Positions 3,673 through 63,969 of a stretch of DNA of 64,000 nucleotides are shown in pieces. A program made the translations under genes and the position numbers. The stretch comes from Aquipuribacter nitratireducens. Lineage in GTDB: Bacteria > Actinomycetota > Actinomycetes > Actinomycetales > JBBAYJ01. The DNA lies in assembly GCF_037860835.1 (NCBI RefSeq), contig NZ_JBBEOG010000009.1, positions 1 to 64,000 on the forward strand, in the 5' to 3' direction. Position 1 is the first letter of the stretch; the number at the start of each line of letters is the position of its first letter. The notes below the pieces were generated by a model. That model was given only the letters and a program-made list of their open reading frames with translations, ran no database searches and was not told the DNA's origin.

Positions 3673-5529
3673 TCAGCTCCAGCCGCCGGGCGGCGCGACC
3701 ACCCGACCGCTCGTGTCGATATTGCCGTACCAGACGATCCACGTGCGGGCGGATGCGTCACCTCGAGCGATCGCATCCGCCCGCTCCTGCTCGGTCCTCA
3801 CGAACCGTGTGCCAGCCTCCGGCGAGATCGGTGTGCCTCCGCCGAACACGTTATTCCTCACTGTGATCATCTGCGGGCGGCCGTGACCACCGTCCCTGGA
3901 GTACATAGTGAAGTAGCCCGTGGGGTTCGCGAGGTAGTTCTCCTCGATGAGCACATTGTTGATGGGGCCGAAGTCGGTCTTGATCATGATTGCACTGGTG
4001 TTCCAGCCCGAGATCCAGTTCCTCCGGATGGTCGTGTCTCCCCCCTGCCAGAACTGGACGCCGTCATGGTGCTTGTCCTGATAGCGCGTACCGTCGCGCC
4101 AGATCTTGTTGTACTCGATGACCGTCTTGGCGGTGCCGCTCGAGCGGACAGGGTTGAGACCGTCGGTGTTGCCGGTGATGTTGCTGTGTCGCACCACCAT
4201 CGCCTCGCCGCCCACGGCCGCGCCACCCGTGTTCATCGTCGAGCGCTCGACGACCGCACGCCCACTACGAACCAAGAGCTTGTCGGAGAAGACCGAGTTG
4301 CGGAAACCGGTGTCAACACCATAGACGTCCTGTCGGGCAGTGATCGACTTGTCGGCGTGAACGACCCCGTCCTGCTCGAGCATGCCGTAGGCGCCGCCGT
4401 TAAAGAGTGCCTTTGTGCCCGCCACAGCGCCCGCGTTGGCGGCCCAGTCGTAAGTCAACGGGTTGAAGGCGAGCGTAGCTTGTGGCGTCGACGTGGCGGT
4501 AGCAGTCGGTGACGGGACGGGAGCCGACGTCGCGGTGGCGATGGACCCGTTCGAAACGCCGAAGGAGGTGGTGACCAGCGTCTGCAGCCCCCCTTGCGTC
4601 ACGCGAGCCGTTAGACGATGAGTGCCGTTCGCGAGCCGCGTGGTGTCCAGCGCGTTCGCCAGTTCCGCCGTCCCGCCCTCAAGGTCGTAGGGAGCGTTGG
4701 ACTCGGACTGACTCGGTTGCGTATCCGTGCCGCTGTCGAGCCAGAAGTCGACCTTGTCCGCGGCACCGCCACTCACCGAGAGGAAGATGTACGCGGTCCC
4801 GCTGACGGTCGTACCAGCAAGTGCGGACGCAGGCGAACGGGTGGCCGACTGGCTCCAGCTGAACGTGGCGCTCCCGCCACCGACCAGGCTGCCCGCTGGC
4901 GCCGTGGCAGCTGCAGTCGGGCTGGGGGTCGACGAAGTGGTAGAGGCCGTGGGCGACGGCTGGGCGGTCGTAGGCGGCGTCGTGGACGTGCTCGACGCAC
5001 TACCGGTCACCGAGGGCGTGGCGCTGGGGGACGGAGGCGGCGCCTGGGTGGCACTGGCACTGACTGTCGTTGACGGGCTCGGCGACGAAGTTGGCAGCGG
5101 TGCGGTCTTGTCCACCGTGAAGGTGGCAGACGAACGACTTTCCCCTGCCGAGCTCCTCACGATCACGCTGACCGTGTACGCCCCATTCGGGAGCGCAGAA
5201 ACCTGCAGTGGGACAGGATGACCCTTGGCCGTGTCGCCCAACAGATCGTACGGCGCTGTGCGCTCCACTCGCGGTGCGTCGAGGAGGTTCTCTGCAGAGA
5301 ACGTCACGCTCGCGCCCTTCGGGACGTTGACGAGCTCGACGTACACGGCGCCGGAGTTGACGACCGCGCCTGACAGCGGCCGCTCCGAGCCGTTTGCCAC
5401 CGTGGCGTAGACGAGCGTGGGCGTCGCGGTCACCACGGCGGCGTAAGCCGTACCGGTGACAACGAGGAGGGACAGCACAGTGATTTTCGCCGTTAGGGCG
5501 AGCCGGCGGATGGGACGAGGCAGGTTCAT
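3673..5529 (-). CDS. Secreted right-handed beta-helix protein with Ig-like modules
   Basis: 618 residues. The signal peptide is MNLPRPIRRLALTAKITVLS followed by a hydrophobic run ending TGTAYAA. Two Ig-like modules follow at about residues 35-150 and 215-330. A Ser/Thr/Pro linker separates them. The second carries KVDFWLDSG and SNAPYDLEGGTA, the same motif set as the giant protein at 8091-12962. The C-terminal half is a parallel beta-helix with recurring short strands (VIEYNKIWRDG, TTIRRNWISG, VLIEENYL, ITVRNNVFGG), a fold common in polysaccharide lyases and depolymerases. The start at 5529 has AAGGA 6 bases upstream. Export plus location suggests trimming or binding of the exported polymer, but I see no assignable catalytic triad. 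Confidence 0.8.
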   Translation of the reverse strand: MNLPRPIRRLALTAKITVLSLLVVTGTAYAAVVTATPTLVYATVANGSERPLSGAVVNSGAVYVELVNVPKGASVTFSAENLLDAPRVERTAPYDLLGDTAKGHPVPLQVSALPNGAYTVSVIVRSSAGESRSSATFTVDKTAPLPTSSPSPSTTVSASATQAPPPSPSATPSVTGSASSTSTTPPTTAQPSPTASTTSSTPSPTAAATAPAGSLVGGGSATFSWSQSATRSPASALAGTTVSGTAYIFLSVSGGAADKVDFWLDSGTDTQPSQSESNAPYDLEGGTAELANALDTTRLANGTHRLTARVTQGGLQTLVTTSFGVSNGSIATATSAPVPSPTATATSTPQATLAFNPLTYDWAANAGAVAGTKALFNGGAYGMLEQDGVVHADKSITARQDVYGVDTGFRNSVFSDKLLVRSGRAVVERSTMNTGGAAVGGEAMVVRHSNITGNTDGLNPVRSSGTAKTVIEYNKIWRDGTRYQDKHHDGVQFWQGGDTTIRRNWISGWNTSAIMIKTDFGPINNVLIEENYLANPTGYFTMYSRDGGHGRPQMITVRNNVFGGGTPISPEAGTRFVRTEQERADAIARGDASARTWIVWYGNIDTSGRVVAPPGGWS

Positions 5530-8090: not shown

Positions 8091-11000
8091 CTAACTCGGC
8101 GGCGCAAGCACCTCATGGCTCACGTCCGTCGAGAAGCCTGCCACTCGGCCACCACCGACGACGTGCAACTGGCCGTCGATCACCCCAGCCGCCGCGCCAT
8201 GCCGCCCGGTTGGCATCTCACGCCAGGACGACCAAGCGCCCGTCGCTGGGTCGAAGACCTCCACGGCGCTGAAGGCGAGGCCGTCCGCTCGTGCCTCGCC
8301 ACCCGCGACGACCACCTTGCCGTCGAGGACGCCTGCCGCAGCGGTGCGTCGACCAGTTGGCATCGAGGGACCCGGCACCCAAGCGGACGCGTCGACGTCG
8401 AGGACCTCCATCGACGCCAGGGTCGGTGCCGTTGTGACGCCGGTTGACTCACGCGTTCGTCCCCCGACGACGTACATCCGAGTGCCGACGACGGCCGATG
8501 CCGCATTGTCCCGAGGCGTCGCCAGGCGCGGTCCGGCGGACCACCGTTCGGTCGTCGGATCGTAGATCTCAACCGTGTCCACGGAACGACCCTCCGTGTC
8601 CATTCCACCCACGACGATGAGGCGGCCCTGCAGCCACTGCGCCGTAGCGCCGCCCCGGGGGGTGGGCAGAGGGGGCAATGTAGTCCAGGAGTCCGTTGCC
8701 GGGTCGTAACTTGCGAACTGAGAGGTGGCGCCCGCGAAAGCCTCTGTAGATCCCCCCGCGACGTACAAGCGCCCTAGGTATGCCGTGACGGCAGGGTTTT
8801 CGACCGCGACACCGGGCAGCGGGGCACGCAGCGACCATGACTCGGATTCCGCGTCGTAAACGCGCAGCGTCGACTTCGGTCCAGAGCCGTTCTTTCCACC
8901 GATTACGTAGAGCTGGCGATCGATAGCCGTCCCTCCCGCGTCGAGGATGTCCTGCGGCAGCGGTGCGGCCTCCTGCCAACACCCGGTTTCGCGAGGGACA
9001 AGCACGGTCACCTGGCCGGCACCGAACTCCCCGACGAGCAGCGTGCCATTTGGCCCCGAGCCGATAGGCAAAGGGTCACGAAGGTTGTCCAGCAGCGGTT
9101 CATTCGCCACGACCGCCTCACCGTCAGGCGAGAGGCTGGCGTAGGCGAGGTTGTCGCCCAGCGAGTAGTTGCCGTAGATGAGACTGCCGTCCAGGAGGCC
9201 GCAGAAACCACCTTCGCTGCTGTACTCGACGATGCCATTGGTCGAGCGGTTCCGGCCAGTGTCGAGCAAGGGCGCCACGTAGTTGGTCGGCACCGGGACG
9301 CCCTGGAAGGAACCGTCGCCGAAGACGCACTCGCCGCGGGCCGGGTTCGGATGACCGTAGTAGCCGCCAGCCACGATGCGGTTGATCTCATCGTTCTGCG
9401 TTCCGGGGTTATTCCCCCCCTGCGTCCAAGGCCGAGTGTCGCCGAAGCCGAAACATGGTGCAATCGGCGAGGGAGGGTAGGACCCCTCGACGCCGAGGCC
9501 GTTGTCGGTGCCGTAGATCGTTCCGTTGCTGTGGAACGTGAAGTCGTACATGTTGCGTAGACCGCTGGCAAAGACCTCTACGTCACATGGGGCGGGACCG
9601 TACATGTCGCCCATGTTCTGGCAGCTGCCATCGAAAGTTGGGTCGTAGATGTCGGCGGTGATTAGCGCCGCCGACAGCGCCTGCTCGCCTCGGTCGCCGA
9701 ACTCGGTCGCCGCGAGGTTCGCACCGCCAGCGCCGGTGTTGCCCCCGATTGCCATGTAGAGCACGTCGTCCGGCCCGAAGTGAAGCGACGTCGGGCCGTG
9801 GTTGGCGTAAGAGCGGGGGAGTCCAGTGACGATGTCCTGCGTCGTAGCGAAGTCTGGGCCCGACAGTCGAGTGACACGACCCGAGTCGACGACGCCGTGG
9901 TCGGTCACAGGGGAGGAGTGAGCCACGAGGACGCGAACGTCTTCGGACGTCGACGTTGGCTCAACCGCTACTCCCAAGGCCAAGCGGTTGCCCAGCACCT
10001 CGACCGTGCGTTCCTTCACGAGTGTGTGGTCCGCGTTCAAGCGGAGAACGTGAAGGTCCCCGAAGAGATCTGTGACAAACACCTCGCCATCTGGACCGGT
10101 GGCGATTGAAGTCGGGAACGCGAGCGGCGAGGCGACGCGGTCGAAGACGAATGCCCCGGCTGAGTCCACTACGGGGTCGGCGGACACTGAGAATTGCGAA
10201 AACGAGAAGGGGATAGGGGTGCTGCTATTACGCGAGGTCGCCAGGACTCCCGCGAACGAGCGGGTACCGATGCGCGGGTCGATTCCCGCCGCGTCGAAGC
10301 TAAAGAACTCTCCGGGGAGAGTGGCTGTGCCGATCGATCGCAGCGGCTCACCCGTCACTGCGTACGTGCCAGCAAGGGTCCGCTTCGCGGGGTCCGTCCG
10401 GAAGTTAAGCGACACGGCGGCGCCAGCTGGCAGAACGACGCTGGCCTGCTTCTTGAAGATGGTCGCGCCGTCGAGCTCCACGGTGTACTCGAGCCTCCAA
10501 CCTCCGGGGACGCCGACGAGCTGCAGAGCAGCGACATTGCTCTGGCTGTAGCCGAACCAAAGTCCGGCCTTCTCGTACTTTCCTCGTGACGCCGGGACGT
10601 CGACGACCGTCGTAGACAGTGTCGTCTGGGCGAGGGGCCCGTCGAAACCCACACCGAGAGCGTTCTGCTGGTCACCCGTGTTCAGCGACCCCGAACTCGC
10701 CTGCACTGTCAGCCGCCCATCATTGAGATCCACTGCATAAGCGCTGCGGTCCCGAAGCATCTTGCCATCGGCGGTAGGCAGAACCGTTGAGAAGCCAGTT
10801 CCCGCACCCGAGGCGTCGATCATAAGCCCTGAGTCGTAGAGCCAGTTGAGGTCGTAAGGGGTCGGCACCTTGATGAGCTCGCAGGCGACGGGACTGCACC
10901 CACCACTGTCGCCGACCTGGACTGTGATCATGAGGGCGTCCGAGAACGCGCCCGGGCTGCTCGCAGTCACGGTTGTGGTGAAGACACCGGGACTGAGGCC

Positions 11001-12962
11001 AGCCGCGTTCACGGTGATGGAGACGAGTGACGGTGTAACGACTTCTTCCTGTGCCAGTCCGATGAAGGATGCGTCTGCTGTCAGTGCAACGGGCGTGCCA
11101 TCGGTGTCGGCGTCGACCGCGACCTGGAACGTGACGGGGTCCGCCCCTTCCGCCACCTCCACCGTGTACTCCTCTTGGGCAAAGGAAAGGCTGTTCGTGC
11201 CGTTGGACGTTGTGAAGGTCGACTGGAGAACGAGCGAGGTCGCTGTCGTGGTCACACGGGTCGTGTACGTGTGCTCTCCATCCGGGAGCGATGCTGAGTC
11301 AAACGGCAGCGCCGTCCCATTGGCGGCCTTCCCTACGAGGTCGAAGGGAGCCGATTGATCGACCCTAAATGGAGCGCTGGTCATGGCCGGGTCGTCGAGC
11401 CAGAACTCCACCTTTCGGACGTCCTCGTCCGGCTTGATATAGGCGTAGACGACCCCGGTCAGCGTTGCTCCGTCTAGCAGAACGCGACCCGTCCGACGAT
11501 CGTCCGTGCCATAAACCAGAGCGGCCGTCGCAGTCGTCTCACTGACAGTGGCCCGCACGATGAAGGAGGTGCCGGCGTGTGTCGTGGACGTAATGTCGAC
11601 ACGCGCTTCGGAAGTGCCCGAAGGCAGCGTCTGAGGATCAACCCGAACACGCAGTGTGCTGACTCCAGGCGACACCGGATCAAGGGAGGCGCTGGCCCAA
11701 GCGCGGTCAGCGGTCGCGATGGCGCTCACGACAGCCCCGTCCGACGTGGACAACTGGGCGGTCACTTCCTTGGCGGGCTCGGTCGGCGTGGCAAAGGTTG
11801 TCGTCGCCGCCGTGGTCGACAGAACAAGCCGCGCGACGGACTCGTTTCTTACGTTGAAGGTCGCGCTTGTCGTGCGGGTTGAGCCATCCACGAGAGTAGA
11901 ACGGGCAGTGACGCTGTGTAGGCCATCGGCAAGAGCGCGGGTGTCGAAAGGAACCGCGGTTGACGACGTGCCTCCATTCAAGTCGAAGGGTGCCGACTTT
12001 TCTGTTCGGTAGGGCGTGCCGGTCGCGCTCGGGTTGTCGACCCAGAAGCTCACCCGCGACACCGCCGGATCGGGCGCCGTGAAGACGTACACGTCCCCTG
12101 ACACGTCAGCACCCTCGAGCGGCCGACCATTCGATCGGTCGCTCCGCTCACTCACCACTATCCCCGTCGATGCACCGCTCGTCGCGACAGTGAAGCTGAC
12201 TGGCAACCGCAGGATCGCGTAGGTGCCCGTCGTCGGGGTGACGGAGATGGTCGCTTGGTGCGTGCCCACGCCAGAGACGACTGGGTCGGCCTCGATGCCA
12301 ATCGTCATCTCCGAGCCGCTCGGTCGCGCCGACGTGACGCTAGCCCAGGCGACGTCCACCGACACCTGCGCCTCGAATGTCGTCCCGGCAGGGGACGTCA
12401 CGCTGACGACCGCCCGGGCGGGCGATCCTGCCTCGCTGCCGGCGATAGCGACCGCAGACGGGCTCGCCGCCAAGCCAGTCTGATTACGGACCGTGAACGA
12501 TGCGGAGACGACACTTGCGGCACCGGCCGAGGTCGTCACACGAGCGGTGATTGTGTGCGTGCCGTCGGAGACTGCGGTTGTCGACCAGGCATTTGCTGTC
12601 GATGCCGACCCACCAGCGAAGTCCCAGGGTGCGGAGCGCTCGGAGCGGTAGGGCGTCCCGCTCATGTCCGGGTCGTCGAGCCAGAACTCGACACGCGCGA
12701 TACCAGCCCCGTCGTCAGGAACATAGACGTACGCGTTCCCCTGCAGGACGGCGGCCTCGAGCGTCGCACCATCCGATCGGTCGGCATGGCTGGAGACCTG
12801 AACCAACGGGGTGGCGGCAGCCGCGAGGCCAGGGGTCACCAACAGGCTTCCGGCAAGTGCGACGAGCGAGAGCAGAACGAGCAACGTGGTGCTGCGGCCG
12901 AAGCGTCCAAGCCAACGGGCCCTCGTTTGCGGCGTCAAGGAAACCGGCGAGACAGCGAACAT
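8091..12962 (-). CDS. Giant secreted Ig/BACON/propeller/kelch protein
   Basis: 1,623 residues. A signal segment lies at about 24-50 and ends GLAAAA. Three related Ig-like modules lie near 52-160, 262-375 and 480-590, each with a VxFWxDxP and SAPxD core. BACON-like beta domains (for example at 161-260, with AWASVTSARP) separate them. A concanavalin-like sheet domain follows near 700-920. A glucose/sorbosone-dehydrogenase-like propeller lies near 930-1330 (FGPDDVLYMAIGGNTG, VFASGLRNMYDF). Five kelch repeats (YVIGGKNG, YVAGGST, VVGGMD, YVVGGRT, VVAGGE) close the protein. The ATG at 12962 has GAAGGG upstream. It is co-directional with the flippase and GTs, so it probably binds or modifies polymer outside the cell. 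No sortase motif or C-terminal anchor is visible. Confidence 0.85.
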   Translation of the reverse strand: MFAVSPVSLTPQTRARWLGRFGRSTTLLVLLSLVALAGSLLVTPGLAAAATPLVQVSSHADRSDGATLEAAVLQGNAYVYVPDDGAGIARVEFWLDDPDMSGTPYRSERSAPWDFAGGSASTANAWSTTAVSDGTHTITARVTTSAGAASVVSASFTVRNQTGLAASPSAVAIAGSEAGSPARAVVSVTSPAGTTFEAQVSVDVAWASVTSARPSGSEMTIGIEADPVVSGVGTHQATISVTPTTGTYAILRLPVSFTVATSGASTGIVVSERSDRSNGRPLEGADVSGDVYVFTAPDPAVSRVSFWVDNPSATGTPYRTEKSAPFDLNGGTSSTAVPFDTRALADGLHSVTARSTLVDGSTRTTSATFNVRNESVARLVLSTTAATTTFATPTEPAKEVTAQLSTSDGAVVSAIATADRAWASASLDPVSPGVSTLRVRVDPQTLPSGTSEARVDITSTTHAGTSFIVRATVSETTATAALVYGTDDRRTGRVLLDGATLTGVVYAYIKPDEDVRKVEFWLDDPAMTSAPFRVDQSAPFDLVGKAANGTALPFDSASLPDGEHTYTTRVTTTATSLVLQSTFTTSNGTNSLSFAQEEYTVEVAEGADPVTFQVAVDADTDGTPVALTADASFIGLAQEEVVTPSLVSITVNAAGLSPGVFTTTVTASSPGAFSDALMITVQVGDSGGCSPVACELIKVPTPYDLNWLYDSGLMIDASGAGTGFSTVLPTADGKMLRDRSAYAVDLNDGRLTVQASSGSLNTGDQQNALGVGFDGPLAQTTLSTTVVDVPASRGKYEKAGLWFGYSQSNVAALQLVGVPGGWRLEYTVELDGATIFKKQASVVLPAGAAVSLNFRTDPAKRTLAGTYAVTGEPLRSIGTATLPGEFFSFDAAGIDPRIGTRSFAGVLATSRNSSTPIPFSFSQFSVSADPVVDSAGAFVFDRVASPLAFPTSIATGPDGEVFVTDLFGDLHVLRLNADHTLVKERTVEVLGNRLALGVAVEPTSTSEDVRVLVAHSSPVTDHGVVDSGRVTRLSGPDFATTQDIVTGLPRSYANHGPTSLHFGPDDVLYMAIGGNTGAGGANLAATEFGDRGEQALSAALITADIYDPTFDGSCQNMGDMYGPAPCDVEVFASGLRNMYDFTFHSNGTIYGTDNGLGVEGSYPPSPIAPCFGFGDTRPWTQGGNNPGTQNDEINRIVAGGYYGHPNPARGECVFGDGSFQGVPVPTNYVAPLLDTGRNRSTNGIVEYSSEGGFCGLLDGSLIYGNYSLGDNLAYASLSPDGEAVVANEPLLDNLRDPLPIGSGPNGTLLVGEFGAGQVTVLVPRETGCWQEAAPLPQDILDAGGTAIDRQLYVIGGKNGSGPKSTLRVYDAESESWSLRAPLPGVAVENPAVTAYLGRLYVAGGSTEAFAGATSQFASYDPATDSWTTLPPLPTPRGGATAQWLQGRLIVVGGMDTEGRSVDTVEIYDPTTERWSAGPRLATPRDNAASAVVGTRMYVVGGRTRESTGVTTAPTLASMEVLDVDASAWVPGPSMPTGRRTAAAGVLDGKVVVAGGEARADGLAFSAVEVFDPATGAWSSWREMPTGRHGAAAGVIDGQLHVVGGGRVAGFSTDVSHEVLAPPS

Positions 12963-12973
12963 GGTGCGGCCCT

Positions 12974-13537
12974 TCAGTATGCGGAACGGTTCCACAGGAC
13001 CGAGTCCAAGGTCCTGAGGCGGATGGAGGAGCCGATCTCGAGTACCCACTGCGAAGCGCGGCGCAGCACGAGTCGCTTCGACTCGTCCCGGTCCAGCGCA
13101 GAGAGGTCGTCGGCCTGCCATGGGGCGGTCATGCCCGGCGCGTCGCGGAGGCGTCGCCGGTTGTGTCGTTCGGAACGGAAGGCTCGGCGCGGCGGACCGA
13201 GCGGCGCCGCGTCGATCGAGAGCAGGCGATCTGAAAGCACCGTGACGGCCCCAGAACGCTGAGGCCCCGTTGACGAGGCCGGGTCGCGCACGACCAGCAA
13301 TCTCTCCGTCCCAACATGCCGAGGGAGCGGATGGTCAAGCAGGCGCTGACGTTGGCAGCGTCTGCCAACGAGGAGCAGTCCCCGCTCGGCTCGCCAGGAA
13401 GAGAGCCCGACCATTCGGGCGCAATTTCTACCGAGCCTTGGGCGACCGAGGCAGGATGCAACCATCGGTGTCGAAGGCTTCACGTTGCGTAGCGGGTCCG
13501 CAGAATTCGCCGGAGGCAGGGCCAAGGAGTTACTCAC
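12974..13537 (-). CDS. Degenerate sugar-transferase-like protein lacking the catalytic Asp-Glu pair
   Basis: 187 residues. The last 55 align without gaps to the C-terminus of the polyprenyl glycosylphosphotransferases at 42467-44023 and 61978-63624. APGMTAPWQ matches RPGLTGLWQ, DES-KRL matches RES-RRL, and LRTLDSVL...AY matches VRTVDVVL...AY, at about 40 percent identity. The usual SLDELPQL segment aligns with TGPQR-SGAV, so the catalytic DE pair is absent, and the N-terminal membrane domain is missing. Third codon positions are strongly GC in the C-terminal half, which supports real coding. GTG at 13537 has AGAGGT about 7 bases upstream. It lies 11 bases before the giant-protein gene. It could be a pseudogene remnant or a regulatory pseudoenzyme. 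Confidence 0.6.
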   Translation of the reverse strand: MSNSLALPPANSADPLRNVKPSTPMVASCLGRPRLGRNCARMVGLSSWRAERGLLLVGRRCQRQRLLDHPLPRHVGTERLLVVRDPASSTGPQRSGAVTVLSDRLLSIDAAPLGPPRRAFRSERHNRRRLRDAPGMTAPWQADDLSALDRDESKRLVLRRASQWVLEIGSSIRLRTLDSVLWNRSAY

Positions 13538-13738
13538 AGTAGACACCTCTTCCACCCTTGGGTCTCGAAGGGCGTGGAAACGCACGCCCCGTGCTCATCC
13601 CTCACGGAGACTACGGGCGAGTGGGACGCCGCGGTGGGGAACTCGGCAAATGACTTGCTGACCACATCAACGCGTGACGCCAAGAAAGATCGTCGTCACG
13701 ATTAGCGAGGTAGGACGCAGCCCACCACAGGCTAAGGG

Positions 13739-14662
13739 TCAGCCAGCTTCCGTCCAGCCCGCCAGCCAATCCGAACGTTCGGTCCAGAGTTCTCGAGACA
13801 CGGAACCTGGACGCGACGTCAGTGACCGCAGGCCCACTCCCGTTGCCATAAGGCCGAGCGCAACGCGACGACGGATCCCGTGCCATCGCTTGCGCGCTAG
13901 GTGCGCCCGTCCGCGCATTAGCAGCCGCTGCTTTGCCAGCGTCGACGAGCTTGAGGCTCCGACTGCGTGGACGATCTGCGCCGCGGGCGACACCGACGGG
14001 CGATAACCCGAACGCCACGCCCTCCAGCACAGGTCAGCGTCTTCGCCGTACATGAAGAACGCCTCGTCGAAGCCGTCAAGTTCGTCCCACACGAGTCGGG
14101 AGGTCAGCAAGAGGCACCCTGTCACGACGTCGACCGCCCGCTCACTGTCGCGCTGCCACTGCCCGAGCGACTCCGGGTCGAGCACCCGATTGCCGCGAAA
14201 CAGGGTCGACAGCCCGGTCGCGTAGCAGGCGAGGCTCCAGAGCGTCATCGCGCCCCAGCACGAACGGGGGTCGAGCGTGCCATCGGGCGCCACCGTCCGG
14301 CCGCCGACGATGCCGCGGCTCGGGTCTGCGTCATGGAACCTGACGAGCGCCTCCAGCGCGGCGGCCGTAACGAGTGTGTCGGGGTTGATGAGGGCGACAA
14401 GCCGGCCGCGGCTCAGTCCGACGCCAACGTTGCAGGCGCGCGCGAAACCGACGTTGACGTCCATCTGGTGCGCTCGAACCCCTGCAGCACGTGCTTGCGC
14501 GATGACCGCGCGTGTCTCGGACCCGCTCGCGTTGTCTACGACAACAACCTCGGCATCGAGGGACATGGTTTCGACTGCCGCGACCAGACTGTCTAGACAG
14601 CGGCGAGTCCAGTCCGGCGCCTCGTACGTGACAACGACTACGCTCAGGTCAGGTCCGCTCAC
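13739..14662 (-). CDS. GT2 glycosyltransferase, WbbL/rhamnosyltransferase type
   Basis: 307 residues. DLSVVVVTYEAPDWTRRCLD opens a GT-A domain. EVVVVDNASGSET and LVALINPDTLVT carry the WbbL-type NPD metal motif. ELDGFDEAFFMYGEDADLCW is the strongly conserved acceptor-side block of this group, and the C-terminus is basic. I start at the GTG at 14662, 4 bases after the acetyltransferase stop and preceded by AGGCGGGG. The earlier in-frame Met sits inside the acetyltransferase gene. About 200 bases without an evident gene separate its end from the next coding start. Confidence 0.88.
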   Translation of the reverse strand: MSGPDLSVVVVTYEAPDWTRRCLDSLVAAVETMSLDAEVVVVDNASGSETRAVIAQARAAGVRAHQMDVNVGFARACNVGVGLSRGRLVALINPDTLVTAAALEALVRFHDADPSRGIVGGRTVAPDGTLDPRSCWGAMTLWSLACYATGLSTLFRGNRVLDPESLGQWQRDSERAVDVVTGCLLLTSRLVWDELDGFDEAFFMYGEDADLCWRAWRSGYRPSVSPAAQIVHAVGASSSSTLAKQRLLMRGRAHLARKRWHGIRRRVALGLMATGVGLRSLTSRPGSVSRELWTERSDWLAGWTEAG

Positions 14663-14666
14663 CGCG

Positions 14667-15218
14667 TTACCCCGCCTCGGTGGTGGCTGGGGCGTCGGGA
14701 GCACCCCCGCGCCATCCGATGACCCGAGCGGGTGCACCGGCGACGATGGCTCCGCTCGGCACAGCCCGCGTAACGACGCTGCCTGCTGCGACGACTGCGC
14801 CGTCGCCAACTCTCACCCCGGGCAGCAGAACGGCGCGTACCCCCAGCCAAACGTCGGCGCCGACTATGACATCGCGCTCTTGCTTCGGCTGCTGCATCAC
14901 GGGCGCACCCCACACCGTGCCGTAGTTGCTGGCGGTGATAAAGACCTCCGGCGCCAGGAGGCAGTGGTCGCCGAGGACGATGCGCCCGGTCGAGTCCCCC
15001 GCCCACAGCGAGCTCCGCTCGCCCACGTGCACCTCGCGTCCGAGCGCTATCCGCTGAGCGTTGCGAAGGCTCACTGATGGCGACATCCGCAGCCCGGGGC
15101 CCGCGATGAGCCTCCGCCGCTGCTCGACGTGGGAGTAGCCGTAGAAGTTGACGATGCGCAGGACGTGGGCCCACAACCGCGGGTCGAACAACCGCCTCAG
15201 GTCCGAGCGCCGGCTCAC
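14667..15218 (-). CDS. Left-handed beta-helix acetyltransferase (hexapeptide repeat), cluster 1
   Basis: 183 residues. An N-terminal helical segment (DPRLWAHVLRIVNFYGY) precedes hexapeptide repeats (IALGREVHVGERSSLWAGDS, IVLGDHCLLAPEVFI). A long loop follows, then more repeats (VIVGADVWLGVRAVLLPGV, VGDGAVVAAGSVVTRAV, PSGAIVAGAPARVIG). This is the WcaF/NodL-type O-acetyltransferase layout using acetyl-CoA. The GTG start at 15218 overlaps the stop of the GT2 upstream (GTGA). It has a clear paralogue at 57258-57800, also next to a GT2 of the same type. It probably acetylates the repeat unit in the cytoplasm. Confidence 0.88.
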   Translation of the reverse strand: MSRRSDLRRLFDPRLWAHVLRIVNFYGYSHVEQRRRLIAGPGLRMSPSVSLRNAQRIALGREVHVGERSSLWAGDSTGRIVLGDHCLLAPEVFITASNYGTVWGAPVMQQPKQERDVIVGADVWLGVRAVLLPGVRVGDGAVVAAGSVVTRAVPSGAIVAGAPARVIGWRGGAPDAPATTEAG

Positions 15219-17530: not shown

Positions 17531-17836
17531 GTGCTGAAGCGGGTCGACGCGCGCCTCACCGAGGTCGAGGTCGACGGCGAGATCGCCGTCTACCACCCGA
17601 AGACGGACCGCGTCGTGCTTCTCAACTCTTCCGCGTCGGCGATATGGCGACGTTTGCCCGTGCGGGGCGTCCAGGACCTCGTCGACCATCTCGTCGACGT
17701 CTTCAATGTCAACGTTGACGAGGCGCGGGTGGGCGCTGAGACAGGGATCGCGCTGCTTGCAAACGAGCGGCTGTTGGCCGATGCCGATGACCACGTCGGC
17801 TACCCCGCCGATGACCTGCCCGATCAGCGGGCATGA
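17531..17836 (+). CDS. PqqD-like peptide-binding (RRE) protein
   Basis: 101 residues with the PqqD-family pattern. It has a short beta segment with VYHPKTDRVVLLNSSASAIW, then helices including LVDHLVDVFNVNVDEA. PqqD-like domains bind leader peptides for modifying enzymes. Alone they are also known partners of HprK-related kinases in surface-polysaccharide regions (the HPr-rel-A pairing defined for other bacteria). GTG start. The stop overlaps the start of the HprK-like gene (ATGA), so the two are made together. The substrate peptide is not identifiable here. Confidence 0.75.
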   Translation: MLKRVDARLTEVEVDGEIAVYHPKTDRVVLLNSSASAIWRRLPVRGVQDLVDHLVDVFNVNVDEARVGAETGIALLANERLLADADDHVGYPADDLPDQRA

Positions 17837-18612
17837 GCCTGCACCTGCTGGCTGGCGACGGCGCGCTCCTTGCACTCGACGGCGACTACGACATCCTCGC
17901 AGCGCTCGAGGCGCTCTGGCAGCCCTTCACAGCGGCCGACGGCGCAGGTTCGTCGGACGTCGAGCATGTGGTCGTACGGGATCTTGCAGAGGCGTCAGCC
18001 GTCGTAAACCGAACGCTCGTCGCCCGTCTGCAGTGGCCAGCTGTTCATGCGGCTGTCGTGGAAATCGGAGGCGGCGCGGTCGCTGTGCCCGCGGTGTCGG
18101 GCGCTGGGAAGTCGACGCTCTCGGCCGCACTTTGCTGCGCGGGTGCCGGCTACCTATCCGACGAGGCGCTAGTTCTCGACGACGCGCCCGTCACAGACGA
18201 GGCGTATGAGGGGCCAGTCTCGGCGCTGCCTTACCCGAAGCCGGTCGCCCTGAGCCGGTGGAGCGCCCGCGCCGTCGGCCTGAGCGAAGCCAGAGGCGTC
18301 GATGGCGAACAGCTTCTCGACGGGGATCGCGAACTTCTGTTTCCGGCGGCGGCGCTAGGCGGACCTTGCAAAGCGGTGCCGATCCTGAACGTTCTGCTAC
18401 CACGCCGAACCAGCGGCCCCCCGCGGCTAGAGCGGGTGCCGCGGATTGACGGTCTGCGGGCTCTGATTGATCTGTCGTTCAACCATTACCGCGACCCGGT
18501 GCGCTTCCTGCTTGCCGCAGCCGCGACAGTACGAGGCGCCGACGTCCACGTCCTGGAGATCGGCGAGCCGATGGCCACCGCCCGCTTGGTACACGAGTCC
18601 TTCAAACCATGA
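17833..18612 (+). CDS. HprK-related P-loop kinase
   Basis: 259 residues. After a mixed N-terminal domain, VPAVSGAGKSTLSAAL carries a Walker A loop (SGAGKST, residues 89-95), followed by YLSDEALVLD, the acidic segment typical of HPr kinase/phosphorylase relatives. No HPr or PTS gene is nearby. Coupled upstream to the PqqD-like gene. Its TGA stop overlaps a further ATG (ATGA at 18609-18612), so a third gene once followed. Related proteins in lasso-peptide and HPr-rel-A contexts phosphorylate or process peptide substrates, but the role here is unknown. Confidence 0.75.
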   Translation: MSLHLLAGDGALLALDGDYDILAALEALWQPFTAADGAGSSDVEHVVVRDLAEASAVVNRTLVARLQWPAVHAAVVEIGGGAVAVPAVSGAGKSTLSAALCCAGAGYLSDEALVLDDAPVTDEAYEGPVSALPYPKPVALSRWSARAVGLSEARGVDGEQLLDGDRELLFPAAALGGPCKAVPILNVLLPRRTSGPPRLERVPRIDGLRALIDLSFNHYRDPVRFLLAAAATVRGADVHVLEIGEPMATARLVHESFKP

Positions 18613-18713: not shown

Positions 18714-19093
18714 ACCGCCCTGGGTTCGGTGGAGGCTCTTGACCCTGGAAACGAGGATGGAGCCATGCCGAAGGAGAAGACGCCTGGGAAGCCCCAGACC
18801 CGGCGGTACAGCCAGGAGGAGAAGGACGCGGCGGTGCGCATGGTCCGTGCCCTGCGGGCCGAGCTCGGGACGAGCCAGGGGACGGTGCAGCGGGTCGCGA
18901 GCCAGCTCGGCTACGGCTCGGAATCGGTCCGGCTGTGGGTGCGCCAGGCGACGACGGCCGTGCGCCGGGGGTGACGAGCGAGGAGTCGGCGCGGTTGAAG
19001 GAGCTGGAGCAGGAGAACCGGGAGCTGCGCCGCGCGAACGAGATCCTGAAGCGGGCCGCAAGTTTCTTCGGGTCAATGCCAGTCTCGGGGGTG

Positions 19094-19297
19094 CCCGGTC
19101 GGGGTTCGCTCGTTTCTTCGCTGCCTCGGTCGTCGTCGTAGTGGTGTCGTACGTCAGCGCGGTCGATGGCTTGTCCGCGATGTGCGGCTCCGGCCGGGTG
19201 TCCTGACGTCCGCGGGGCGTGGCCTGATAGGAGCCTGTCGCGGCGGCGAGCCGTGCTGGATTGAGGCGTGCCCGCCCTCGCGGACGTCAGGACACCC
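19094..19297 (+). ncRNA. Candidate IS110 bridge RNA with target and donor loops
   Basis: Two stem-enclosed loops precede the transposase. Stem 1 pairs 19094-19106 with 19186-19198 (13 pairs, four of them G-U). Its loop contains GTTTCTTCG at 19112-19120, identical to the left target 19062-19070, and TCCGCGA at 19174-19180, the reverse complement of the right target 20433-20439. Stem 2 is a perfect 19-base inverted repeat (19196-19214 with 19279-19297). Its loop contains ATAGGAGC at 19227-19234, identical to the element right end 20424-20431, and CTGGATTGA at 19256-19264, matching with one gap the reverse complement of the left end 19073-19082. This is the arrangement known for IS110 bridge RNAs. 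Exact RNA ends are not known. Confidence 0.65.
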
Positions 19298-19327
19298 GCA
19301 CGTTCGACGTCTCTGGAGGAGCTGCTC

Positions 19328-20422
19328 GTGGTCATGATCGGCGCTGATTCGCACAAGCGGACCCACACCGTGGTCGTCGTCGACGAGGTCGGCCGCCGGT
19401 TGGCCACGACCACGGTGACGGCCAACTCCGAGGGTCACCTGAGGCTGGTGGAGTGGGCCGCCCGCTTCAGCGACCACGACACGGTCGGGGTCCGCTTCGC
19501 GCTCGAGGACTGCCGTCATCTGACCCGCCGCCTGGAGGCGGACCTCCTCACCGCCGGGCACCGGGTCCTGCGGGTGCCGACCCGCCTGATGGCCGACTCC
19601 CGACGTGCCGCGCGTGAGCCCGGCAAGTCCGACCCCATCGACGCCGAGGCCGTCGCGGTGGCCGCCCTGCGGCACCCGGACCTGCCGGTCGCCGAGCTGG
19701 ACGGCCCCGCCCGGGAGGTCAAGCTGTTGTCGGATCACCGCCGTGACCTGGTCAGACAGCGCACGAGGATCGCCGCGCAGGTCCGCTGGCATCTGCACGA
19801 GCTCGACCCCGACCTGCTCATCCCCAGCCGCGGTCTGCGCCGGCAGCGGGTGGCCCGTGAGCTGCTGCAGGAACTCGACCGCTTCGACGGCGTCGTCGCC
19901 CGGCTCGCGCGGCAGCTGCTGGAACGCTGCCAGGAACTCAGCGGGCAGATCAACGAGCTCGAACGTGAACTACGCGACCTGGTCGCGCGCCTGAACCCGT
20001 CCCTGCTGGCGGTGCCCGGCTGCGGGGTGCTGTCCGCGGCAGTGATCATCGGTGAGACCGCCGGCGTCCACCGCTTCCGCGACAAGGACGCCTACGCCCG
20101 CTTCACCGGCACCGCTCCGGTGCCAGTGTGGTCGGGCAGCAGCCGAGGCAAGGTCCGCCTCAACCGCGGCGGCAACCGGACACTCAACTGCGCCCTGCAC
20201 ATGATCGCCGTCACCCAGGCCCGCGGCGTCGGGCCCGGCCAGGCCTACCTGGCCAAGCAGACCGAGCGAGGCAAGGACCGCGTCGCCGCTCTCCGGCTGC
20301 TGCGCCGGCGCCTGTCCGACGCCGTCTACACCGCGCAGACCGTCGACCACCGCACACGCCTGCAGGAGCGCCCGCAGACGCGCCCGCAGCGGTCTCCCGT
20401 CCCGCTCGCCGTCGCGGCTTGA
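19328..20422 (+). CDS. IS110-family DEDD transposase
   Basis: 364 residues. The N-terminal RuvC-like DEDD domain is visible as IGADSHKRTHTVVVVDEVG, ALEDCRHLTRRLE and SDPIDAEAVAVAALRHPD. A coiled segment links to the C-terminal Tnp domain with LLAVPGCGVLSAAVIIGETA and RFTGTAPVPVWSGSSRG, the latter carrying the conserved Ser. I prefer the GTG at 19328 (GGAGG about 8 bases upstream) over the ATG at 19334. Length is normal and the frame is intact. It should act with the RNA encoded just upstream. Confidence 0.88.
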   Translation: MVMIGADSHKRTHTVVVVDEVGRRLATTTVTANSEGHLRLVEWAARFSDHDTVGVRFALEDCRHLTRRLEADLLTAGHRVLRVPTRLMADSRRAAREPGKSDPIDAEAVAVAALRHPDLPVAELDGPAREVKLLSDHRRDLVRQRTRIAAQVRWHLHELDPDLLIPSRGLRRQRVARELLQELDRFDGVVARLARQLLERCQELSGQINELERELRDLVARLNPSLLAVPGCGVLSAAVIIGETAGVHRFRDKDAYARFTGTAPVPVWSGSSRGKVRLNRGGNRTLNCALHMIAVTQARGVGPGQAYLAKQTERGKDRVAALRLLRRRLSDAVYTAQTVDHRTRLQERPQTRPQRSPVPLAVAA

Positions 20423-42466: not shown

Positions 42467-44023
42467 TCAGTACGCGCCGCGTCGCCGCAGGACGACGTCG
42501 ACCGTCCGCACGAGGATCGTGAGGTCGAACCCCAGGGACCAGTTCTCGACGTAGCGGACGTCGAGGCGGCGGCTCTCCCGCCACGACAGGTCGGAGCGCC
42601 CGCTCACCTGCCAGAGCCCGGTCAGGCCGGGGCGGACGAGGAGCCGCCGCGCGATGAAGCGGTCGTACTCGGCCGCCTCCACCGGCAGGCTCGGCCGCGG
42701 CCCCACGAGGGACATCTCCCCGCGCACGACGTTGACGAGCTGCGGGAGCTCGTCGAGCGACGTGCGGCGGAGCCAGGCGCCCACCCGAGTCACCCGGGGG
42801 TCCGCCTTGAGCTTGAAGAGCAGCCCGGCGCCCTCGTCGGCGTCGAGCAGCTCCGCGCGGCGCTGCTCGGCGTCGGTGCGCATCGTGCGGAACTTCAGCA
42901 TGGTGAACGTCGTCCCGTCCTTGCCCATGCGGGTCTGACGGAACAGCGCCGGGCCGGTGCTGTCGAGGCGGACGGCTGCGCCGATGCCGACGAGCACGGG
43001 CGCGAGCACGAGCAGCGCGAGCGCCGACACAACCCGGTCCGCGATCGCCTTGAGGACCCGGCGGGGACCGTCGAGCTCCGGGCGGTCGAGCCGCACCACG
43101 GGCAGGCCGCACACCGCGGACAGCGAGACCCGTGGCCCGATCGCCTCGACGAGGGGCGGGGCGATGGCGAGCTCGCGGCCGGCCGCCTCGAGCTGCGCCT
43201 GCAGCCCCCGGAGGTCCTCGATCTCGGCGAGGCCGAGCCCCGGGCACAGCATGACGACGTCCGCGTGGCAGCGCTCGCTCGCCGCCACCACGTCACGCAC
43301 GGCCCCGAGGCGGACCGGCGTCGAGACGTCCGGCTCGGGCCGGTCGGGAGTGCACGCCGCGACGACGTGCCAGCCGTGGTAGCGGTCACGGTGCATCCGC
43401 TGCGACAGCAGCCGCACGTCGTCGGCCGGACCGACGGCGAGCACCCGGACGCTCACCGCACCCGCGCGGTGTGCGGCGTGGGCGCGGGCGCGGACGACCC
43501 GTCGGGCGGCGCCGGTCGTCGCGCACAGGAGGGTGACGAGGAGCAGCGCCCCGCCGGCCCACTGCGCCGGGAGCAGTGCCCACCCCACCGCGAGCACGAC
43601 GACGGTGAACGCCGCGGCCGCAGCGATGACGCGCTGCAGCTCGGCGGACCCGCTCCAGAGGAAGCGTGGCTCGTAGGCGCGGCTCAGCAGCAGGCACCCG
43701 AGCCACAGCGCCACCGCGACAGGCGCGGCGGCCAACGCCAGGGCAGGGAGGTCGCCGGCGAGCACCCACCCGCCCAGCGGGACGAGCGTCGCGAGCGACG
43801 CCGCCACGAGGTCGGCCGCGACCGTGTGCGTCGACCGCCGCCGGGACGCGAGAACAGGGCGCTGCTCCTCCACCTGCGAGCGCTCGGTGATCGGCGCCGG
43901 TCGCGGTCGCGGCGCCCGCTCCGCGCGGACGAGCTCACCGAGCACGTGGAGCTGCTTGCGCACCGACGCGGGGAGGGGGTCGAGACTCGGGCCCAGGGTC
44001 TCCTCGAGCGGCTGGTCGGCCAC
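42467..44023 (-). CDS. Polyprenyl glycosylphosphotransferase, initiating enzyme (cluster 2)
   Basis: 518 residues. Four to five membrane spans come first (from AADLVAASLATLVPLGGWVL). A nucleotide-binding-like CoA-fold domain follows (VRVLAVGPADDVRLLSQRMH). The catalytic sugar-transferase domain has FRQTRMGKDGTTFTMLKFRT, RRTSLDELPQLVNVVRGEMS (with the catalytic Asp-Glu), GPRP and RPGLTGLWQVSGRSDLSWRE, ending RRRGAY. It moves a sugar 1-phosphate from a UDP sugar to undecaprenyl phosphate. The start at 44023 (GTG) has GGGAGG 7 bases upstream. First gene of the minus operon 44023-39699. Confidence 0.92.
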   Translation of the reverse strand: MADQPLEETLGPSLDPLPASVRKQLHVLGELVRAERAPRPRPAPITERSQVEEQRPVLASRRRSTHTVAADLVAASLATLVPLGGWVLAGDLPALALAAAPVAVALWLGCLLLSRAYEPRFLWSGSAELQRVIAAAAAFTVVVLAVGWALLPAQWAGGALLLVTLLCATTGAARRVVRARAHAAHRAGAVSVRVLAVGPADDVRLLSQRMHRDRYHGWHVVAACTPDRPEPDVSTPVRLGAVRDVVAASERCHADVVMLCPGLGLAEIEDLRGLQAQLEAAGRELAIAPPLVEAIGPRVSLSAVCGLPVVRLDRPELDGPRRVLKAIADRVVSALALLVLAPVLVGIGAAVRLDSTGPALFRQTRMGKDGTTFTMLKFRTMRTDAEQRRAELLDADEGAGLLFKLKADPRVTRVGAWLRRTSLDELPQLVNVVRGEMSLVGPRPSLPVEAAEYDRFIARRLLVRPGLTGLWQVSGRSDLSWRESRRLDVRYVENWSLGFDLTILVRTVDVVLRRRGAY

Positions 44024-44209
44024 CGGAACGCCTCCCGTCCTCGTCGTGCGGCGAACCGGTGCTGCGCGCGCCGGACGGTCGGTGCGCGGGGGGTCCACCC
44101 GGGAGGGACGCTAGGCGATGTCGCCCCGCTCCGTGACGGGTTTCGCGCAAACGGGTGAGGAGTTCCGTGGACCATCACTCACGGTGGCGAGCCGTCACCG
44201 AACAGGTGA

Positions 44210-61069: not shown

Positions 61070-61978
61070 TCAGGCGGCGGCGAGCGGGAAGCGGCTGGCC
61101 CGGCGGGCGGCGAACAACTGCAGGAGCGGAAGCCACGTGCGCGGACGGCGCGCGAGCCACCCCAGCCTCGCTCGCGCCTCGCCGCTGCGACCGGCGCGCT
61201 GCGCGGCCCTGGCCTCGTCCCAGTGGACGCGGGCGTAGGCCTGCTGGCGCAGCCGGGCGTCCATCCAGGAGCTGGTGGCGTGGGAGTCGATGATGTCGTC
61301 GAAGCAGCGGCGCGTGGCGTCCCAGTCGCTCGAGGCCTGCGTGTCGTGCATGTGGTAGAGCACCGTCGGCCGCGGCAGCGCGACCCCCGGCGCGCGCTCC
61401 ATGACGCGCAGCCACAGGTCAAGGTCCTGCGCGCGCGGCAGCGGCCGGAACCCGCCGACGCGGTTCAACAGCTCCCGGCGGACCATGGTGCCGCTCGTCG
61501 TGATGACGTTCCCGGGCACCAGTAGCCGCCTCGGGCTGAGCCGTAGCGGACGCCGCCACGCGTTGCCCATGACGAGGCCGGTCGTCGTCACCGACGGCGC
61601 GGTCACGAGACCCTCCCCCTCCCCGGCGGCGACGAGGAGCTCGAGGTGGCGCGGGAGCCACTCGTCGTCGGAGTCGAGGAAGGCGACCCACGTCGCGGTG
61701 GCGTGCGTGATGCCGGCGTTCCGGGCGCGCCCGCTGCCGCCGTTCTCCGGCATCCGCACGAGCGTGGCGCCGTGGGCGAGGGCGACGTCCGGGCTGGCAT
61801 CGCTGCTGACGTCGTCCACGACGACGACCTCGGTCGGCCGGACGGTCTGCGTGGCGACGCTGCGCAGGGCCCGGTCGAGCATCTCCGCGCGGTCGCGCAC
61901 CGGGACGACCACGGCCACGTCGACCGTCGGGCGCCCGTCCCTTGCCGGTACGTCCGGCGTCCGCTGCTCGAGCGTCAT
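61070..61978 (-). CDS. GT2 glycosyltransferase
   Basis: 302 residues. VDVAVVVPVRDRAEMLDRAL, TEVVVVDDVSSDASPDVALA, GSGRARNAGITHATATWVAF and LDSDDEW (metal motif) form the GT-A domain. GFRPLPRAQDLDLWLRVMER is the acceptor-side segment. A basic helical C-terminus follows. The ATG at 61978 shares one base with the stop of the polyprenyl glycosylphosphotransferase (TGATG), so it is coupled to the initiating enzyme and may add an early sugar. Confidence 0.88.
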   Translation of the reverse strand: MTLEQRTPDVPARDGRPTVDVAVVVPVRDRAEMLDRALRSVATQTVRPTEVVVVDDVSSDASPDVALAHGATLVRMPENGGSGRARNAGITHATATWVAFLDSDDEWLPRHLELLVAAGEGEGLVTAPSVTTTGLVMGNAWRRPLRLSPRRLLVPGNVITTSGTMVRRELLNRVGGFRPLPRAQDLDLWLRVMERAPGVALPRPTVLYHMHDTQASSDWDATRRCFDDIIDSHATSSWMDARLRQQAYARVHWDEARAAQRAGRSGEARARLGWLARRPRTWLPLLQLFAARRASRFPLAAA

Positions 61979-63624
61979 CAGTAGGCGCCCCGCGCCTGGA
62001 GAACGGCGACCACGGTCCGGGCGAGGATGCGCAGATCGAAGCCGAGCGACCAGTTCTCGACGTACCGGACGTCGAGGCGCGTCGACTCCTCCCACGAGAG
62101 GTCGGAGCGGCCGTTGACCTGCCAGAGGCCGGTGATGCCCGGCGGCACCAGCAGGCGCCGCATCGTCGTGGCGTCGTACTCCTCGACCTCGCTGGGCAGG
62201 GGTGGGCGAGGTCCCACTACGGACATGCTGCCGAGGGCGACATTGAGCAGCTGCGGGAGCTCGTCCAGCGACGTCCGCCGGAGGAAGCGGCCCACCCGCG
62301 TGACGCGCGGGTCGTCCTGCATCTTGAACAACGGACCGGCGCCCTCGTTGTCGCCGACGAGCGCCAGGAGCCGCGCCTCGGCGTCGGCGTGCATCGTCCG
62401 GAACTTGAGGATGGTGAAGGGCCGGCCGTTGCGACCAACGCGGACCTGCCGGAACAGGGCCGGCCCGGGGCTGTCGAGCCGGATCGCGAGCCCGACGACC
62501 AGGAACACCGGCGAGAGCACGAGCAGAGCCAGCCCAGCGGCGAACCTGTCGCCGAGCGCCTTGACGAAACGGCGGGGACCGCCGAGCTCGGGTGGGGAGA
62601 GGTGGACGACGGGAAGGCCGCAAACGGCCTCCAGTGACACTCTCGGGCCTACGGCCTCGACCATAGGCGGCGCGAGCGCCACTTCTCGGCCCTCGGCGTG
62701 GAGCGCTCGCTCGAGGACGTCGATCGCGGTGAGCCGCGCCCCGCCCGAAGGGGCTACGAGCACGAGGTCGGCGTGACTGCGCGCGGCGGCGAGGACGACG
62801 TCCTCAGGGCCGGACACGGGGTCCAGCAGCAGCAGGCCGTCCTCGGTGTCCAGGGCAGCGTGGCGCATGCCGCCGGGCTCGGCGGCCGCCACGACGTGCC
62901 AGCCGTGGTACCGGTTGCGGTGGATGCGTGCGGCAAGACGGACCGCCTCCTGAGGCTCCCCGACGACCAGAACACGTCGGCGGGTGACGCCGCCGGCGTG
63001 ACGGCGCTGGAGCTGCTCCCGCATGATCGAGCGGGAGAGCAGGGTGAGGCCGAGCACGAGCGCGACCCCCACGATCCCTACGGGTGCCCAGACCTGCGGT
63101 AGGACCAGCCAACCAAGGGTGCCCATCACCGCCAGGGCGACGACACCGGAGACACTGACTCGGTAGTTCTCCGAGGCGCCGTGAACGAGGAAACGGTTCT
63201 CGTAGGCCCGGCCGAGCCCGAGGGCGCACACCCACACCGCGGCGACGAGAACGGAGGCGAGGAGCACCGCGACCGGGAAGCTCAATGGACCGGCGAGATT
63301 CCAGACCGCCTGCTGACCGACGATGACGGGCGCCAGGGAGCCGACCACGAGGGCGACGAAGAACGCCACCAACGCATCCGCCGCGGCGAGGGCCCGCACG
63401 TGCCGCCGATGGGTGGAGCCGAACACCGGTCGGGTCTCGTCCGCAGCGTGAGACACCGAGGGCACATAGGCGCCGACACGTTGGGCGTCACCCGCGCCAG
63501 AGGTGGAGGAGTTGGTGGCGGAGGCGGTCCGCACGTCGACAATCCGGGGTGCTACCTCGCCGGCGTCGATCAGCCGACTACCCGGCGCGTCAGCGCGCGA
63601 CATCTCGTGCTGAGGGGCGCTCAC
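61978..63624 (-). CDS. Polyprenyl glycosylphosphotransferase, initiating enzyme (cluster 3)
   Basis: 548 residues. A polar N-terminus is followed by four to five membrane spans (AADALVAFFVALVVGSLAPV onward) and a CoA-fold-like domain (RRVLVVGEPQEAVRLAARIH). The sugar-transferase domain has FRQVRVGRNGRPFTILKFRT, RRTSLDELPQLLNVALGSMS (with the catalytic Asp-Glu), GPRPPLPSE and PPGITGLWQVNGRSDLSWEE, ending ARGAY. It is a paralogue of the enzyme at 42467-44023. I choose the GTG at 63624: it overlaps the stop of a small leader ORF (GTGA) and has GAGGG upstream. A Met at 63603 lacks a Shine-Dalgarno. Confidence 0.9.
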   Translation of the reverse strand: MSAPQHEMSRADAPGSRLIDAGEVAPRIVDVRTASATNSSTSGAGDAQRVGAYVPSVSHAADETRPVFGSTHRRHVRALAAADALVAFFVALVVGSLAPVIVGQQAVWNLAGPLSFPVAVLLASVLVAAVWVCALGLGRAYENRFLVHGASENYRVSVSGVVALAVMGTLGWLVLPQVWAPVGIVGVALVLGLTLLSRSIMREQLQRRHAGGVTRRRVLVVGEPQEAVRLAARIHRNRYHGWHVVAAAEPGGMRHAALDTEDGLLLLDPVSGPEDVVLAAARSHADLVLVAPSGGARLTAIDVLERALHAEGREVALAPPMVEAVGPRVSLEAVCGLPVVHLSPPELGGPRRFVKALGDRFAAGLALLVLSPVFLVVGLAIRLDSPGPALFRQVRVGRNGRPFTILKFRTMHADAEARLLALVGDNEGAGPLFKMQDDPRVTRVGRFLRRTSLDELPQLLNVALGSMSVVGPRPPLPSEVEEYDATTMRRLLVPPGITGLWQVNGRSDLSWEESTRLDVRYVENWSLGFDLRILARTVVAVLQARGAY

Positions 63625-63656
63625 GCACACCCTCGGCCGCGGTCTCGGTCGTGCAT
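63621..63656 (-). CDS. Eleven-residue leader ORF coupled to the initiating enzyme
   Basis: AGGAGG lies 6 bases before an ATG at 63656 that reads MHDRDRGRGCA and stops at a TGA overlapping the GTG start of the transferase (GTGA). The ribosome site of the leader is the strongest in the area, so translation of the big gene probably depends on it. The peptide is Arg-rich with one Cys near the end. Coupling, attenuation and simple chance are all possible. Confidence 0.5.
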   Translation of the reverse strand: MHDRDRGRGCA

Positions 63657-63969
63657 TCGGTTCCTCCTGGAAGGGCTGCTCCTTGCGGTCACGACGCCTC
63701 TTCCTCGAGCACGACCTACCCAGAGTGCCCCACGCACCGCGGTAGGTCCACCGCTCGCATGCACCGCTACCGCAGACGTCGATCACGTAGTACCCGAACG
63801 CGCGCCGACCATGCCGTCGGGAGCGGGACCCGCTCACGACCTTTCGCCCTGAAACCGCTCGCAGGCCCTGCACTCGCAGCAGGATCATCACGTGCAGAAG
63901 ACCTTCGTGCCGCGTCTGCGGCGAGTTGAGGTCCGCGGCCGGACCGGTACCCCGACACGACAGGAGGAA
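63657..63969. other. Spacer upstream of the cluster 3 initiating enzyme
   Basis: About 310 bases with no convincing gene on either strand. A 7-base inverted repeat (GCGGTAG, CTACCGC) with a 20-base loop lies near 63739-63775. The promoter of the minus-strand leader-transferase unit must be here. I could not place a -10 or -35 with confidence. Confidence 0.3.

Follow-up and report, generated by a model that had tools for sequence, protein, structure and literature searches.

A probable remnant of a phosphoglycosyl-transferase gene in a polysaccharide cluster of Aquipuribacter nitratireducens

Why does a tightly packed polysaccharide gene cluster contain an open frame that resembles a sugar transferase only at its very end? 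An earlier, sequence-only reading of this stretch of A. nitratireducens DNA (here called the window, 64,000 nt) described a 187-residue frame at 12974-13537 as a sugar-transferase pseudoenzyme, and proposed that it is a retained regulatory or scaffold protein rather than debris. We investigated the locus and found that only the C-terminal end of the frame can be traced to a transferase. We put a probability of roughly three in four on the frame being what is left of a decaying phosphoglycosyl-transferase gene, formerly located between a glycosyltransferase gene (13739-14701) and a gene for a Kelch protein (8091-12962), and we are fairly confident that ordinary gene decay is at work.

The gap and the intact transferases of the genome

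The cluster occupies about 0.6-17.4 kb of the window on the minus strand and encodes glycosyltransferases, a Wzy-type protein, a Wzx-type flippase, a hexapeptide transferase, and a large secreted Kelch protein. The frame lies in a gap between two of its genes:

12963..13738, no strand: gap between neighbouring cluster genes, 776 nt (from the gap list)
13739..14701, minus strand: upstream gene, family 2 glycosyltransferase (PF00535, E 2e-18)
8091..12962, minus strand: downstream gene, 1623-aa protein with an apparent signal peptide, glucose/sorbosone dehydrogenase-like with Kelch repeats (Pfam PF07995, PF01344, and others)

All other gaps in the cluster measure 69 nt or less, or are overlaps, so that this gap is by far the largest. 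In a cluster packed this tightly, it is the place where a lost gene would be expected. The gap (12963..13738) matches no Rfam family and contains no sigma-70-type promoter pattern and no terminator pattern. The Kelch gene was unmatched in the eight relatives searched, and both flanking genes were unmatched in the two congeners searched. The 1623-aa Kelch protein carries repeated Ig-like segments, with its Kelch repeats at the C-terminus, and its N-terminal part resembles a window gene at about 4489-4917 (36%).

The edge of the cluster is marked by insertion-sequence transposase genes (18.7-20.4 kb). They comprise an orfA-like transposase fragment (HTH_Tnp_1, just under the Pfam cut-off) and an IS110-family transposase (18729-20422, plus strand). 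A PqqD-like small protein and then a 259-aa protein with a P-loop-like motif are encoded at 17531-18612 (plus strand), divergently from the cluster. Decayed gene remnants are a general class of feature in polysaccharide gene clusters. The locus described here shares with that class an oversized intergenic gap, a truncated gene, and insertion sequences at the cluster edge, and we found nothing that distinguishes it.

Does the cluster encode another enzyme that could initiate its polymer? Only two genes in the genome carry the PF02397 domain, at 42.5 and 62 kb of the window, and both lie outside the polysaccharide cluster:

42467..44098, minus strand: intact phosphoglycosyl transferase A (PF02397, E 3.7e-66; TIGR03025, 373 bits, cut-off 295.55)
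61978..63891, minus strand: intact phosphoglycosyl transferase B (PF02397, E 1.2e-67; TIGR03025, 383 bits)

For the PF02397 type, this confirms the earlier statement that the cluster otherwise lacks an initiating enzyme of its own. Two PF00953-type proteins are encoded on other contigs of the genome. The genome measures 3.8 Mb, and both of its PF02397 enzymes fall within this one 64-kb window.

A transferase end and an unrecognisable upstream part

The open frame itself is real. It runs from 13585 to 12974 on the minus strand, with 203 codons from the first possible start (GTG 13585), and starting at GTG 13537 gives the 187 codons at 12974-13537 that had been described before. Chance frames of comparable length are common in this GC-rich window, and so the openness of the frame says little by itself. 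We divide the frame as follows:

12977..13168, minus strand: remnant, the C-terminal end of a large monotopic phosphoglycosyl transferase, 64 codons, RHNRRRLRDAPGMTAPWQ...NRSAY (profile, tblastn)
13169..13210, minus strand: possible extension of the homology, 14 more codons (tblastn of L005)
13211..13537, minus strand: remainder of the 187-codon frame, with no similarity above controls
12974..12976, minus strand: stop of the frame, TGA, 11 nt ahead of the next gene's ATG at 12962; sequence TACTGAAGGGCCGCACCATG

The tail is homologous to the very end of the C-terminal region in large monotopic phosphoglycosyl transferases of the PF02397/TIGR03025 type. In the large enzymes of this type the catalytic core is C-terminal, following a helix bundle and a further domain (PMC10942596). 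Ungapped alignments join the tail to the two intact transferases in this window (72 aa at 40% and 60 aa at 42% identity), for which the sequence-only reading had noted a match over the last 55 residues, and also to dozens of enzymes in other genomes across the order. A profile of 21 enzymes from the order scored the whole frame at 38.6 bits (E 2.5e-14 for one model against a search space of one sequence), while the frame minus its tail scored -1.7 bits. In tblastn, the tail gave E values of about 1e-9 (down to 3e-9), and L005 aligned over 79 aa at 38% identity to 13210-12977 of the window (E 1.9e-9). Searched against 395 other genomes of the order, the tail found transferases at 37-46% identity, with per-genome E values of 1e-7 to 5e-8 in many genomes, and nearly all of the enzymes matched are frames of about 460 aa or more. 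The homologous end is thus 61-64 codons long (at least about 60, perhaps 78).

Could so short a similarity be due to chance? No Pfam model, PF02397 included, matched the frame at E up to 1, no NCBIfam model matched it at E up to 0.1, and no solved structure was matched. A search against PF02397, one of the checks proposed with the earlier reading, accordingly came back empty, and it was the profile of 21 relatives that detected the tail. However, the score against that profile, the E values repeated in genome after genome, and a match that finishes precisely on the Ala-Tyr common to these C-termini, just ahead of the stop codon, refute a chance similarity. The tail carries the C-terminal end of the PF02397 type (PG.TG.WQ...AY). 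Like the WbaP/EpsZ/WcaJ-type transferases (PF02397 Bac_transf, TIGR03025), it keeps PG.T..WQ, the residues L, W, I, T, and V, and the terminal Ala-Tyr; unlike them, the frame has no N-terminal helices, sensor-like domain, membrane anchor, or Asp-Glu dyad, has replaced 10 of 24 near-invariant tail residues, and falls below Pfam and NCBIfam detection. These results establish a homology to the transferase C-terminus that is real but short. They show the last 61-64 codons to descend from the C-terminal end of a phosphoglycosyl transferase; the rest of the enzyme was not found at the locus. For the tail, the sugar-transferase descent proposed earlier was right.

What, then, is the upstream part? 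We compared it with the family by frameshift-tolerant local, in-frame local, in-frame tail-anchored, in-frame global (over the catalytic domain), and frameshift-tolerant anchored alignment. No transferase signal beyond that of shuffled or unrelated real DNA was found upstream of the tail in any frame, with frameshifts allowed. The in-frame tests gave P values of 0.05 to 0.7, not above shuffles. Frameshift-tolerant anchored alignment gave P values of 0.00-0.17 against shuffles, and one frameshift setting gave 0.003 against shuffles but 0.17 against real unrelated DNA. Since 17-25% of unrelated DNA from the window scores as high, we discount this similarity, although the single low value is a point against a pure remnant. 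As a positive control, we mutated gene A in silico to 0.3-0.4 substitutions per site, and it was usually detected (median z 6-16), even with 16 indels, a result favoured by the presence of gene A itself in the profile. When the upstream 123-139 residues were aligned by eye to various parts of the enzymes, several placements seemed persuasive but were mutually contradictory, and none exceeded shuffled sequence.

A strongly diverged but complete catalytic domain, collinear to the start of the frame, would be another way to read the locus. MAFFT does stretch the 187-residue frame over the full catalytic domain of both A and B, at 30-33% apparent identity. However, the upstream columns common to all three sequences number 21, against 21.3 +- 3.0 when the first 123 residues are shuffled. 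Together with the global profile scores and the unrelated window DNA that does equally well, this leaves such a domain very improbable.

Neither the catalytic Asp-Glu dyad (SLDELPQL) nor the segment due to carry it can be recognised in any frame. No membrane or re-entrant helix aligns ahead of the catalytic core; the frame before the tail is Arg-rich, and nothing among the Pfam and NCBIfam models or the solved structures resembles its first 120 residues. The sequence-only reading was correct that the dyad and the membrane domain are gone. It understated the loss, since nothing ahead of the last 61-78 codons can be recognised. The catalytic core and the membrane part are thus absent, replaced, or beyond recognition, and not simply mutated at two residues. 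With about 61-78 of roughly 500 or more codons left, the frame lacks parts needed for function, as a remnant would. The codon usage of the upstream part does not look clearly coding either, with a codon score of -0.10 that falls between the true-frame and wrong-frame ranges and is close to that of another frame (-0.11). A fold prediction was unstructured (mean pLDDT 33), and since an intact-domain control at equal alignment depth reached only 42, the prediction decides nothing.

Decay or retention of the tail

Is the tail still under selection? Its mean identity to 42 intact tails is 0.40, whereas the intact tails average 0.67 among themselves, with a lowest per-sequence mean of 0.54. The surviving tail, on these alignments, proves far more diverged than any intact copy compared. 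It keeps 14 of 24 near-invariant residues; those lost include G15, L16, G21, R22, D34, Y37, N40, and D46 (numbered in the 64-residue tail). Differences at codon positions 1, 2, and 3 stand at 0.38, 0.46, and 0.51 for the remnant, compared with 0.27, 0.20, and 0.43 between intact tails. Under the simplest correction, the ratio of position-2 to position-3 rates is 1.09 in the remnant lineage (bootstrap 0.59-1.90), against 0.37 in the intact lineages (leave-one-out maximum 0.70). A composition-corrected ratio of 0.55 (bootstrap 0.14-1.35, with third positions near saturation) leaves room for some remaining constraint. Selection on the amino acids of the tail therefore appears relaxed, to an extent that is not precisely measured.

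The earlier reading had pointed to coding-like third positions. GC3 is indeed 0.86 in the conserved tail. In a simulation of neutral decay starting from a GC3 of 0.94, however, values fell to 0.85 to 0.80 (sd 0.06) at 0.2-0.3 substitutions per site, and the observed value lies within one standard deviation of 0.80. A GC3 of 0.86 is what neutral decay would give, so that third positions cannot separate retention from decay, and we dropped them as a sign of retention after this simulation.

The 64-codon tail contains no stop and no indel, and its codon score (0.09) is within the coding range. How much weight should this carry? At 0.3 substitutions per site, the probability of finding no indel is 0.56-0.32 if indels make up 1-2% of substitutions and about 0.01 if they make up 8%, the share being assumed over the range of 1% to 8%. 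An uninterrupted tail is thus unremarkable at the low share and unlikely under pure neutral decay at the high one. The absence of stops and indels is the sole observation that favours retention, with a weight that depends on the indel rate. It also carries a selection bias, because only an uninterrupted part would be recognisable. A further 143 open codons upstream, given the frame of the tail, have a P of 0.017 in shuffles, which also counts somewhat against simple decay. Debris is not proven, because the tail has no stop or indel and there is no close relative for a proper dN/dS.

Relatives offer a further view. The 395 other genomes of the order, among them two congeners, yielded no short form, and every strong tail match in those genomes falls in a frame at least 300 aa long. 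When a consensus tail was searched against 59 genomes, one other orphan transferase tail was detected (G007:C10:132539-132706), and its match is interrupted by a stop. This fragment (locus L062, about 1540-1640, minus strand) covers about 33-45 codons, and the surrounding DNA is broken in all frames. Like the tail in the window, it represents a short piece from the end of a transferase of this family, and the DNA is otherwise broken. It differs in that, a few dozen codons on, it is bounded by a stop and by sequence that does not look coding, whereas the frame in the window is open for >200 codons. Its position in stop-ridden DNA indicates that orphan C-terminal tails arise as debris in this order.

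Might the tail, freed from catalytic constraint, have been kept open for another purpose, either as a translated leader that controls how the Kelch gene is translated or as a small partner of the intact transferases? We consider this rather unlikely overall. The leader is the most reasonable functional alternative and a possible one: ribosomes that terminate on the TGA (12974-12976) would start again on the ATG 11 nt further along, coupling the frame to the Kelch gene, and selection would keep the frame open but not its amino acids. The TGA overlaps the likely ribosome-binding site of the next gene (GAAGGG), GGAAGAGG lies 8 nt ahead of the possible start at GTG 13537, conserved residues have been lost and yet the tail has no stop or indel, and the frame is longer than shuffles usually give. 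However, tight spacing between stop and start is usual in operons of every kind, and the intact gene would have passed it on. The upstream part, moreover, does not look clearly coding, and long frames arise readily by chance in this DNA. On balance, a leader is unlikely.

The retained pseudoenzyme would be a soluble 187-aa protein that binds or regulates an intact transferase. It would fit the open frame and the coding-like GC3 of the tail, and there is precedent in principle for proteins that regulate such transferases, as with EpsW acting on EpsZ, although EpsW is a response regulator and not a pseudoenzyme (PMC12802240). Against it stand the loss of near-invariant residues, the near-equal rates at codon positions 2 and 3, the lack of a short form in any relative, and an N-terminal part unlike any known model or structure; the unstructured fold prediction counts little. 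We regard a pseudoenzyme as quite unlikely, and the proposal of a regulatory or scaffold protein is unsupported.

What the remnant means for the cluster

We therefore favour decay of a former transferase gene. Deletion or recombination may have removed the membrane and catalytic parts, and the leftover tail would then have drifted largely without selection on its amino acids. The long upstream frame would be a chance or unrelated open frame in GC-rich DNA. As the Asp-Glu dyad, the substrate-binding core, and the membrane anchor all belong to the missing part, the remnant can have no transferase activity. If the cluster does make a polymer, initiation would need to come in trans, from either intact PF02397 enzyme or from either PF00953-type protein.

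In annotation, the frame should be counted neither as an initiating enzyme nor as a regulatory pseudoenzyme. Altogether, our analysis suggests that this cluster (cluster 1) lost its own initiating enzyme and that, if still active, it relies on an enzyme encoded elsewhere in the genome.
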